A DNA stretch of 64,000 bases from Homoserinimonas sp. OAct 916 (GTDB taxonomy: Bacteria > Actinomycetota > Actinomycetes > Actinomycetales > Microbacteriaceae): positions 62,001-126,000 of the forward strand of contig NZ_QJHB01000001.1 of the NCBI RefSeq assembly GCF_003260275.1, written 5' to 3'. The notes beneath the pieces are model-generated. The model was not told the origin of the DNA. It worked only from the letters and a program-made list of their open reading frames with translations, and did no database searches. Position numbers and translations under genes: made by a program. This document shows, piece by piece, positions 6,127 to 16,392 of this stretch; the stretch's first letter is position 1; every line of letters begins with the position of its first letter.

Positions 6127-6192
6127 GTGACGGATCAGGAGGTGACGGATAAGGAGGTGACGGATCAGGAGGTGACGGATGAGGAGGTGACG
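6127..6192. repeat. 15-bp tandem repeat at the 3' end of the PP2C gene
   Basis: Four full copies of a 15-bp unit (plus-strand consensus GTGACGGATcAGGAG) and a partial fifth. The phosphatase stop codon lies in the third copy counted from the left. Copies differ at one position, which reads TCA, TGA, TTA and TGA on the coding strand, so the array continues past the stop in the same frame. Confidence 0.95.
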
Positions 6193-7059: not shown

Positions 7060-8136
7060 TCACGCGGAAGGTTCGGCCGTGTGCGATGCCGGCGCGGAAA
7101 CGATGGTAAGAATCTCGACAATATTACCGTCGCCGATGTCCAGCCGTGTGCCGGGGCCCACAACCAGCGATTCCCCCCCGCGCAACCGCACCGGCGCCGC
7201 ACCCGGTGCCGTCACGATGGTGCCGTTTGCCGAGGCCAAATCGGTGACCACCACGGTGCTGCCCACCTGTTCGATCTTGAGGTGAGTGCTGGACACCTCT
7301 CGCGTGGCCGAGGCCACAGTGACCAGGCGCACCGTATCGGAGGTTCGGATTCGAGGCTGCTGCGGGTTTCTGCCCACAAACGCGGTTTCGGTCAGCAGGA
7401 TTTCTTGGCCGCCGACTCGGAAACGGTACACCTCTCCTGTGGGCGCACGCTCCAGTGGTGCGTTCGGGATCGGCGGCGGTGTCCACGCCCCCGCCGCCTT
7501 CAGCCGCGGGATGAGCACGGTGTCGTCGGTGGCCGGGGTTCGTGGCTCCCCCGGCGCAAACCTGCTCTCCGCGTCGGATGCCTGCGGCTCGAAGGCGCTC
7601 GAGGCTTCTGGCTCGTCCCCTCGGACACTCCAGAGCAATTTGGATGCGGAGAAGACCCGCGTGGCAGCCGCAAGTTCCGTCCGGTCGAGGCGGTCGACGT
7701 CCTGTGTTGGAGCCTCCGTCGAACCGATCACGATCGCGGTGGTGCCCGGGAAGTCTGCCAGCAACCACGGCCTGATGCCCCGGTCGGTGACCCGCCGCCA
7801 ACCGCCCACAGAGTAGACGTCGACGGCCGTATCACCACGAACGACCACGGTGACAGCGGCGGCTTCACCGTCGCTGGTGCCGGTGATCTCCGCGACGATC
7901 GCGAAGGAACCCTCAGAATCCGATTGCGGTACCGCGGCGACGAGTTCTTCCACTCGGGTATCGGCCCGCGAAACCAGTGAGTCGAATGAGCTCAGTGCAC
8001 TGACGTCTTCGACCGCGAGGATGGCAACGATGAAACTCTTCCCCGCGACGAACGTCCACTGCGAGCGCGCAGAGGAATCTCGCACCTCGAAGAGACGCCC
8101 TGAAATCACTGCCTGACCGCCTCGTCGCTCACCCAC
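7060..8136 (-). CDS. FHA-domain protein, partner of the kinase/phosphatase pair
   Basis: A 358-residue protein with a C-terminal FHA domain (about residues 235-345). The phosphothreonine-binding pattern is visible as VGRNPQQP, SSTHLKIE and SANGTIV. FHA domains bind phosphothreonine peptides, so this is a likely adaptor of the kinase. The N-terminal 200 residues have no motif I can name with confidence; a stretch reading VVRGDTAVDVYSVGGW recalls PP2C GDSRVY but lacks the metal aspartates. The start is GTG at 8136; a GTG at 8109 is also possible. First gene of the signalling operon. Confidence 0.85.
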   Translation of the reverse strand: MGERRGGQAVISGRLFEVRDSSARSQWTFVAGKSFIVAILAVEDVSALSSFDSLVSRADTRVEELVAAVPQSDSEGSFAIVAEITGTSDGEAAAVTVVVRGDTAVDVYSVGGWRRVTDRGIRPWLLADFPGTTAIVIGSTEAPTQDVDRLDRTELAAATRVFSASKLLWSVRGDEPEASSAFEPQASDAESRFAPGEPRTPATDDTVLIPRLKAAGAWTPPPIPNAPLERAPTGEVYRFRVGGQEILLTETAFVGRNPQQPRIRTSDTVRLVTVASATREVSSTHLKIEQVGSTVVVTDLASANGTIVTAPGAAPVRLRGGESLVVGPGTRLDIGDGNIVEILTIVSAPASHTAEPSA

Positions 8137-8160: not shown

Positions 8161-8330
8161 TCAGGAACCGATGTAGCTCATGACGTGCTTGATGCGAGTG
8201 TAATCCTCGAAGCCGAACAAGGAGAGATCCTTGCCGTGGCCACGGCCACGAACTCGTCGTGTACGTCTTCCTGCACCAGAAGCCTGGTGGCTGCGGTGCG
8301 GCCCTGCCCGAAGCCGTGGTGAAACTTCAT
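8161..8330 (-). pseudogene. Remnant of gamma-aminobutyraldehyde dehydrogenase (PatD-like)
   Basis: Two aldehyde dehydrogenase pieces are joined out of frame. From 8327 downwards one frame reads GQGRTAATRLLVQEDVHDEF, matching the segment around the catalytic cysteine in this family (usually GQDCTAATR). The frame ending at 8161 reads GKDLSLFGFEDYTRIKHVM, the characteristic C-terminus. The catalytic Cys has been replaced, about 150 intervening residues and the whole N-terminal half are missing, and the junction lies in a GTGGCC-rich stretch. The gene faced away from the Lrp/aminotransferase pair, a usual arrangement for putrescine/GABA catabolism. I consider it non-functional. Confidence 0.82.
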
Positions 8331-8365
8331 GACTAAACATATGAAATTCGAAGTGAATCAACGCA

Positions 8366-8410
8366 AACACAACGAATACACTTGTGTTCATGCATATTTA
8401 CTGCCATAAT
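8366..8410 (+). promoter_or_regulatory. lrp promoter with inverted-repeat operator
   Basis: A -35 TTGTGT (8382-8387) and -10 CATAAT (8405-8410) are separated by exactly 17 bp. The predicted start of transcription falls at the ATG of the regulator, so the mRNA may be leaderless. A perfect 7-bp inverted repeat, AACACAA (8366-8372) and TTGTGTT (8382-8388), overlaps the -35 element and is a good candidate for autoregulation by the Lrp protein. Confidence 0.6.
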
Positions 8411-8416
8411 CGAGGC

Positions 8417-8899
8417 ATGAAGCGGTCTCAGCGCACACCCTCGGTACGCCCGATTCAGCTTGACGAAGTCTCGAAGCAGATCATCGAGCAGCTGCAAGAA
8501 GATGGCCGTCGCTCCTACTCGGAGATCGGCAAGCACGTCGGGCTGAGCGAAGCCGCCGTCAGGCAGCGGGTGCAGAAACTGACCGATGCCGGGGTCATGC
8601 AGGTGGTCGCCGTGACAGATCCCATGCAATTGGGCTTCTTTCGGCAGGCGATGATCGGTGTGCGTGTCACTGGTGACATGCGTACAGTGGCAACAGCGCT
8701 GGAGTCCATCCCGCAGGTCGCCTACGTGGTGTTGACGGCCGGCAGTTTCGACATCCTGGCAGAGGTGGTGTGCGAGTCGGACGAAGATCTCATAACTTTG
8801 CTCAACTCACAGATTCGCAGTTTGGAAGGCGTTCTCTCCACAGAGACGTTCGTCTATCTCAAACTGCACAAACAGTTGTACAACTGGGGAACGCGATAG
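8417..8899 (+). CDS. Lrp/AsnC-family transcriptional regulator
   Basis: A 160-residue regulator. Residues about 12-60 form the AsnC-type helix-turn-helix (DEVSKQIIEQLQEDGRRSY, then SEAAVRQRVQKL), and the rest is the RAM ligand-binding domain ending in TFVYLKLHKQLYNW. The ATG at 8417 is preferred over an upstream in-frame GTG because it matches the family start and the predicted transcription start. Eleven bases separate it from the aminotransferase, so the two form an operon, and it probably controls amine or amino-acid breakdown by that enzyme. Confidence 0.93.
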   Translation: MKRSQRTPSVRPIQLDEVSKQIIEQLQEDGRRSYSEIGKHVGLSEAAVRQRVQKLTDAGVMQVVAVTDPMQLGFFRQAMIGVRVTGDMRTVATALESIPQVAYVVLTAGSFDILAEVVCESDEDLITLLNSQIRSLEGVLSTETFVYLKLHKQLYNWGTR

Positions 8900-8910
8900 G
8901 AATAGCAAAA

Positions 8911-10299
8911 ATGTATAAGAAGATGAACGAATACAACAACAAAGAACTTCAGCAGAAGGCGAAGGATCATCTCTGGATGGCGATGGCACGCCAGTCCGTG
9001 ATGGAGTCCGGCCAGGGAGTACCGATCATCACCAAGGGTGACGGACACCACATCTGGGACATCGAGGGCAACAAATACATCGATGGTCTCGCCGGCCTGT
9101 TCACTGTGAACGTGGGTCACGGCCGGAAGCGCCTCGCTGAGGCCGCAGCGAAGCAGGCCGAGGAGTTGGCCTTCTTCCCACTCTGGTCCTATGCCCACCC
9201 GGCAGCGATCGAACTCGCCGACCGGCTTGCCGGCTACGCCCCGGGCGACCTGAACCGAGTGTTCTTCTCCTCCGGTGGAGGCGAGGCGAATGAGACCGCG
9301 TTCAAGCTCGCCAAGCACTACTGGAAGCTCATGGGCAAGCCCATGAAGCACAAAGTGATTTCTCGTGCGATCGCCTACCACGGCACCCCGCAGGGTGCAC
9401 TGGCGATCACCGGCATCCCCGGCATGAAGGAGATGTTCGAACCGATCGTTCCCGGTGGATTCCGGGTGCCCAACACGAACTTCTACCGGGCACCGGAGCA
9501 CGGCGACGACCTGGAGAAGTTCGGCCTGTGGGCGGCCGACCGTATTGCCGAGATGATCGAATTCGAGGGCCCGGATACGGTTGCCGCGGTCTTCCTCGAA
9601 CCGGTGCAGAACAGCGGTGGCTGCTTCCCGCCTCCCCCCGGCTACTTCCAGCGCGTGCGCGAGATCTGCGACAAATACGATGTTCTGCTGGTCTCCGACG
9701 AGGTGATCACCGGCTTCGGTCGGATCGGGAACATCTTTGCCTGCGAGACGTACGGCTTCGTTCCCGACATGATCACCTGCGCGAAGGGCATCACCAGTGG
9801 GTATGCCCCCGCCGGCGCCACGATCGTGAGCGAGAAGATCTACGAGCCGTTCAAGCACGGCGACACGGTCTTCTACCACGGCTACACCTTCGGGGGGCAC
9901 CCGGTGGCTGCAGCTGTCGCGCTCGAGAACCTGGACATCATCGAGGAGGAGAAGCTCTGCGAGCACGTGCGTGAGAACTCCCCACTGTTCCGGGCCGAGT
10001 TGGAGAAGCTGCTCGACCTGCCGATCGTCGGTGACGTTCGGGGCGACGGGTACTTCTTCGGTATCGAACTGGTGAAGAACAAGGAGACCAAGGAGACCTT
10101 CAACGAGGAGGAATCCGAGCACCTGCTGCGCGGCTTCCTGTCGAAGGCGCTCTATGACGGTGGCCTGTACTGCCGCGCGGACGACCGGGGAGACCCCGTC
10201 ATCCAGCTCGCGCCGCCGCTGACCATCGGGCCGGCCGAGTTCGCCGAGATCGGTGCGATCCTGCGCAAGGTGTTGACCGAGGCATCCGCGCGCCTCTAA
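8911..10299 (+). CDS. Class-III aminotransferase (putrescine/GABA/omega-amino acid type)
   Basis: A 462-residue PLP enzyme. SDEVITGFGR carries the PLP-ring aspartate (about D263) and CAKGITSGYAPAG the Schiff-base lysine (about K292); FSSGGGEANETAFKLA binds the cofactor phosphate. The N-terminus (LWMAMARQSVM) resembles the omega-amino-acid:pyruvate group. Linkage to Lrp and to a dead aminobutyraldehyde dehydrogenase points to putrescine or GABA as substrate, but substrate choice cannot be read from sequence alone. The ATG at 8911 has TAGGAA upstream. Confidence 0.9.
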   Translation: MYKKMNEYNNKELQQKAKDHLWMAMARQSVMESGQGVPIITKGDGHHIWDIEGNKYIDGLAGLFTVNVGHGRKRLAEAAAKQAEELAFFPLWSYAHPAAIELADRLAGYAPGDLNRVFFSSGGGEANETAFKLAKHYWKLMGKPMKHKVISRAIAYHGTPQGALAITGIPGMKEMFEPIVPGGFRVPNTNFYRAPEHGDDLEKFGLWAADRIAEMIEFEGPDTVAAVFLEPVQNSGGCFPPPPGYFQRVREICDKYDVLLVSDEVITGFGRIGNIFACETYGFVPDMITCAKGITSGYAPAGATIVSEKIYEPFKHGDTVFYHGYTFGGHPVAAAVALENLDIIEEEKLCEHVRENSPLFRAELEKLLDLPIVGDVRGDGYFFGIELVKNKETKETFNEEESEHLLRGFLSKALYDGGLYCRADDRGDPVIQLAPPLTIGPAEFAEIGAILRKVLTEASARL

Positions 10300-16248: not shown

Positions 16249-16392
16249 ACCTCTCGGCGGGCGAAGGGGTTTCGGAGGGCTAAGGGTTATCGGCAGGCCA
16301 AGGAGTCTCGGCGGGCTATGGCGTCTCGGCAGGCTATGGGGTCTCGGCAGGCTATGGGGTCTCGGCAGGCTATGGGGTCTCGGCAGGCACGG
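16249..16392. repeat. Eight-copy 18-bp tandem repeat overlapping a stop codon
   Basis: Eight consecutive 18-bp units (plus-strand consensus GGGTCTCGGCAGGCTATG). The units nearest the gene are almost identical, while those further left diverge steadily. The reductase stop (TAG at 16370-16372) lies inside a unit, and in-frame TAG triplets recur every 18 bp downstream. The last residues of the protein (PAETP) are repeat-encoded. Confidence 0.96.

Follow-up and report, generated by a model that had tools for sequence, protein, structure and literature searches.

A short region of Homoserinimonas sp. OAct 916 DNA, lying between an FHA-domain protein gene and an lrp regulator gene, raises two questions: what did it once encode, and how might the organism manage without it? 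We analysed it within a window of 64,000 nucleotides, the whole stretch to which all positions below refer. A sequence-only reading had described 8161-8330 as two fused scraps of a PatD-type aminobutyraldehyde dehydrogenase, joined out of frame and with the Cys lost. Our results agree, and the coordinates were nearly right, homology beginning at 8309 rather than at 8330. On the minus strand, 8309-8244 corresponds to residues 280-301 of the PatD-type enzyme (translation GQGRTAATRLLVQEDVHDEFVA), and 8241-8161 corresponds to residues 453-478 plus the stop codon (translation GHGKDLSLFGFEDYTRIKHVMSYIGS, then stop). The two scraps are collinear and their reading frames differ. The Cys of the GQDC motif is the catalytic residue in this aldehyde dehydrogenase family; in the active-site scrap the conserved GQDC now reads GQGR (Cys codon to Arg), and the catalytic Cys of the relic is thus lost. 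Aldehyde dehydrogenases also possess an NAD-binding part and a catalytic Glu in an ELGG segment. Codons ~9-277 and 302-452 are absent from the relic, which is therefore without the NAD-binding part and the catalytic Glu segment. The intact FHA-domain gene (7060-8136, minus strand, PF00498) adjoins the relic on one side and the plus-strand lrp gene (8417-8899) follows on the other. The FHA gene marks a conserved neighbourhood, kinase-PP2C-FHA-patD, whose order is kept in relatives. Judged by the nearest relatives of the FHA protein, the window belongs in Microbacteriaceae or close to that family. Two tandem repeats were also noted in the window, one of 15 bp at the 3' end of the PP2C-type phosphatase ORF (6127-6192, 4.4 copies, 94% matches) and one of 18 bp at 16252-16388 (7.6 copies, 85% matches).

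To place the scraps, 12 full-length orthologues were compared by tblastn with the whole 64 kb window, and the reversed window served as control. Residues 453-478 matched at 8241-8164 (92% over 26 aa against the L056 and L058 orthologue, E 3e-10) and residues 280-304 at 8309-8235 (80% over 25 aa against L059, E 1.4e-5). Outside the relic no match in the window was better than E 0.021, and none in the reversed window was better than 0.083. In a search of the whole genome the C-terminal and active-site scraps were recovered at E 4.6e-9 and 2.4e-4, respectively. Both scraps align to members of the PatD/gamma-aminobutyraldehyde dehydrogenase family (PRK13473), of which the relic retains only ~50 to 60 of 478 codons. 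A 76-aa ORF running through the relic matches the C-terminus of the PRK13473 profile (NCBIfam NF010000; E 3.3e-6) at positions 449-473 only, and its 26 bits are far below the curated cut-off of 615; a Pfam search gave no match for this ORF. At the DNA level the C-terminal scrap is 90% identical to L058 over 77 nt and the active-site scrap 80% identical to L064 over 65 nt (E 5e-12 in a small comparison). When L056, L058 and L069 were compared with the relic, the C-terminal scrap differed at 9 to 12 of 75 bases and the active-site scrap at 15 to 17 of 66. Most of these differences fall at third codon positions (6/9 and 12/17, respectively, against L058), which indicates that the lost gene coded for a functional protein through most of its existence. 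This bias is as expected for a gene that would have been under selection until fairly recently.

The N-terminal end is less distinct. An ATG at 8340-8338 (minus strand) is separated from the lrp start by 76 bp, a spacing shared with L056 and L058. The codons there read MFSHEV, which resembles MS-HEL, and the L056 and L058 proteins start with MSQREL and MSTREL, respectively. This ATG is probably the old start codon and the beginning of a third scrap, the N-terminal likeness being too short for proof; the assignment of 8310-8340, which would also hold the first deletion junction, is accordingly uncertain. Between this ATG and lrp lies an intergenic region (8341-8416) in which a diverged copy of an operator-like motif, described below, can be made out by eye.

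We then examined 199 family genomes (Microbacteriaceae), counting as lrp orthologues those matching at E 1e-45 or better. Such an orthologue is present in 140 genomes, and in 77 of these an intact dehydrogenase gene stands divergently beside it, where the sequence-only reading had proposed to look, with a gap of 104-189 bp to the lrp match. L069 carries, at the corresponding place, an orthologue that is a PRK13473 member (680.2 bits, cut-off 615). Among 20 relatives with wide flanks, 12 carry a full dehydrogenase gene, with FHA or phosphatase genes on one side and lrp on the other; at that threshold one has a remnant and seven have none. Four of eight named loci are intact (L073, L075, L076, and L078), namely Cryobacterium psychrotolerans (L073, 84%), Microbacteriaceae bacterium VKM Ac-2854, a Salinibacterium MAG, and one Microbacteriaceae MAG. 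In two more, Cryobacterium tagatosivorans and another Microbacteriaceae MAG, lrp and the aminotransferase gene are present but the dehydrogenase is not, and in the remaining two none of the three genes was matched within the stretch examined. Because the intact orthologue stands beside lrp in 77/140 genomes and the scraps match it, we read the region as a fairly recent pseudogene relic.

The dehydrogenase has been lost repeatedly in the family. The lrp and aminotransferase genes occur without an adjacent dehydrogenase in 49 of the 140 genomes, that of OAct 916 included (its genus is represented by this one genome in the comparison), and lrp occurs without the aminotransferase in 14. In ten genera, some lrp-aminotransferase members bear the dehydrogenase and others lack it. 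An orthologue elsewhere in the genome was found in only 6 of the 49, so replacement is no general rule. Relics were sought in the 2,500 bases upstream (less at stretch ends) at 64 places without an intact gene in 63 genomes, the 64th place being a second lrp copy in a genome with an intact gene elsewhere. Clear relics were detected at only three of these places: the window, G181 (L067), and G063 (L068). The remaining upstream matches had E values of 0.002 or higher, weaker than the best of the reversed-sequence control (3e-4). In G063 and G181, two members of one genus, this place holds C-terminal relics that differ from that of the window; in a third member of the genus, G128, the gene is intact. 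In four other genomes (G018, G069, G098, and G132; L130-L133) a different dehydrogenase of 31-34% identity fills the slot beside lrp, in two of the four on the opposite strand.

The retained pair in the window is intact, as the sequence-only reading had stated. The Lrp/AsnC-family regulator exceeds the cut-offs of PF13404 and PF01037, and the class III aminotransferase (8911-10299, plus strand) scores 784.9 bits against PRK06541 (cut-off 574). The gene SCO5656 of Streptomyces coelicolor is presumably also an Lrp regulator. In two reports on that species, PatA-like SCO5655 and PatD/PuuC-like SCO5657 are described as induced by polyamines (PMC5403932, PMC8998196). Their locus tags are two apart, and the ancestral arrangement of the window has lrp between the two genes; in the window, by contrast, the dehydrogenase is a relic, and the likeness is one of description and gene order. 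The closest solved chain to the window aminotransferase is PDB 9gh9, the Streptomyces transaminase Sbv333-ATA (721.6 bits). Its report, in which this nearest solved relative is characterised as a biocatalyst, describes activity on cadaverine, propylamine, 2-phenylethylamine, beta-alanine, and GABA (PMC12343752). Given this broad amine range in the closest solved relative of the aminotransferase, it is possible that the lrp-aminotransferase pair does not open a PatA-PatD route at all. A similarly broad range, by analogy, would explain the survival of the pair without its neighbour, since several dehydrogenases could handle the aldehyde products.

An operator-like motif precedes lrp in 11 of 12 dehydrogenase-bearing loci (0.8 expected from shuffles) and in 39 of 49 dehydrogenase-lacking lrp-aminotransferase loci (3.2 expected from shuffles), and from this enrichment the lrp side appears to be still under selection in relatives. 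The relatives have half-sites of the GATTTCG / CGGAATC type before lrp, often two ~30 bp apart and often followed by a CTTG element; together these form a candidate operator of this Lrp group. The window is one of these 49; an exact copy of the motif is absent before its lrp, and we make no claim of an operator there. An FAD oxidoreductase gene (L069:8004-9401) follows the aminotransferase gene in 8 of the 12 dehydrogenase-bearing loci and in at least 23 of the 49 lrp-aminotransferase-only loci, many of which end ~1 kb past the aminotransferase; no such gene was found after 10299 in the window.

Apart from the relic, the PRK13473 profile has 18 matches in the genome of OAct 916, of which about a dozen are full-length. 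A single match exceeds the cut-off (630.7 vs 615 bits; C51:466109-467563), which supports the earlier suggestion of another dehydrogenase elsewhere. This gene is intact and lies on the same contig, ~395 kb from the relic. The possibility that the orthologue had simply moved elsewhere in the genome was rejected, the best full-length match, this same enzyme, being only 44% identical to the lost type. Next to the intact gene lie an FAD oxidase gene and a pot-type (polyamine) ABC transporter, of which the ATP-binding protein exceeds the potA cut-off and the substrate-binding protein is closest to PotD, below the PotD cut-off. Also in this cluster is a gene (L080:7641-8942) for a glycosyltransferase that resembles the macrolide family, below its cut-off; a 67% identical copy is found in the G141 cluster. 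A close relative of the second dehydrogenase occurs in only one other of the 199 genomes, G141 (72%), which is also without the lrp-adjacent dehydrogenase. PotD relatives of at least 65% identity are confined to 5/199 genomes (OAct 916, G063, G181, G082, and G141), and in all five the transporter genes stand beside aldehyde dehydrogenase and FAD oxidase genes (at L141 these neighbours were assigned by family). Compared with the pot-linked dehydrogenase of OAct 916, those of G063, G181, and G082 reach only 31-33% identity.

Each of the three genomes with a relic belongs to this group of five (Fisher p 2e-5 by genome; p 0.003 by genus, with 2/2 relic genera among 4/64). The association is post hoc, two of the three genomes (G063 and G181) are of one genus, and we regard it as suggestive. 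A general rule that loss goes with the pot operon was not supported: 4 of 5 pot-type genomes and 59 of 135 others have lost the gene (Fisher p 0.13), and G082 has both the pot operon and the intact gene. Since the association is post hoc, is not significant for all losses and meets an exception in G082, we keep it as a speculative reading only. In that tentative reading, lrp and the aminotransferase gene would form a self-standing unit that has repeatedly shed patD in Microbacteriaceae and, where relics remain, shed it after gain of a pot operon with its own aldehyde dehydrogenase and amine oxidase; one gene would possibly have been displaced by a whole cluster.

Three other accounts of the locus have to be weighed. 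The gene might be intact in the organism and the deletions an artefact of assembly, the genome being a single draft assembly of 135 contigs. This is very improbable, because two separate junctions and the point changes in the Cys motif all lie inside a 558-kb contig, and similar relics occur in two other genomes. The relic might instead still make a short protein from ATG 8340 (or 8391) to the old stop, the region toward lrp acting as a divergent promoter region. The 76-aa ORF is indeed open from 8391 to 8161 and has the old C-terminus in frame; however, its central part is the Cys region read out of frame, and open frames of this kind are common in GC-rich DNA. A conserved short peptide was rejected as well: the relics of G063 and G181 keep other codons and have another length, so there is no conserved counterpart among them, and we give a short product hardly any credence.

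The fate of the pathway was the other part of the sequence-only reading, which held that it had probably been cut after the first step or was completed by another dehydrogenase elsewhere. Were it cut, the aminotransferase would make 4-aminobutanal (1-pyrroline) that is oxidised no further, in keeping with the loss of the local dehydrogenase and the retention of the aminotransferase. We consider this unlikely. The genome offers a second enzyme that exceeds the curated PRK13473 cut-off and, in all, about a dozen full-length aldehyde dehydrogenases; 49/140 genomes keep lrp and the aminotransferase without this neighbour, and Sbv333-ATA, the closest solved relative of the aminotransferase, has a broad amine range (PMC12343752). 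Completion elsewhere is favoured over a cut pathway by the second PatD-family enzyme on the same contig, in its pot cluster.

We concluded that the stretch is very likely the relic of a patD-type pseudogene divergent from lrp, and that its function may have been replaced. Two internal deletions, spanning roughly codons 9-277 and 302-452, removed ~87% of the codons of the ancestral gene, and the point changes at the catalytic Cys motif could have come before or after them. The decay would be fairly recent, ordinary and neutral. The relic yields no dehydrogenase, and the Lrp regulator and aminotransferase are presumably used. If the lost step is still needed, it would most likely be taken over by the pot-linked PatD-family enzyme, notwithstanding its only 44% identity to the lost type, or else by other aldehyde dehydrogenases.

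A single literature search linking aminobutyraldehyde dehydrogenase with Microbacteriaceae yielded no paper, and we claim nothing beyond that result. Taken alone, the locus is unremarkable as a gene relic; what makes it interesting is that the gene has been lost again and again while the pair next to it was conserved. The ten genera with and without the dehydrogenase amount to a small natural experiment on what the retained pair does, and the same pattern opens to test the idea that a catabolic step can pass to an enzyme linked to a transporter.
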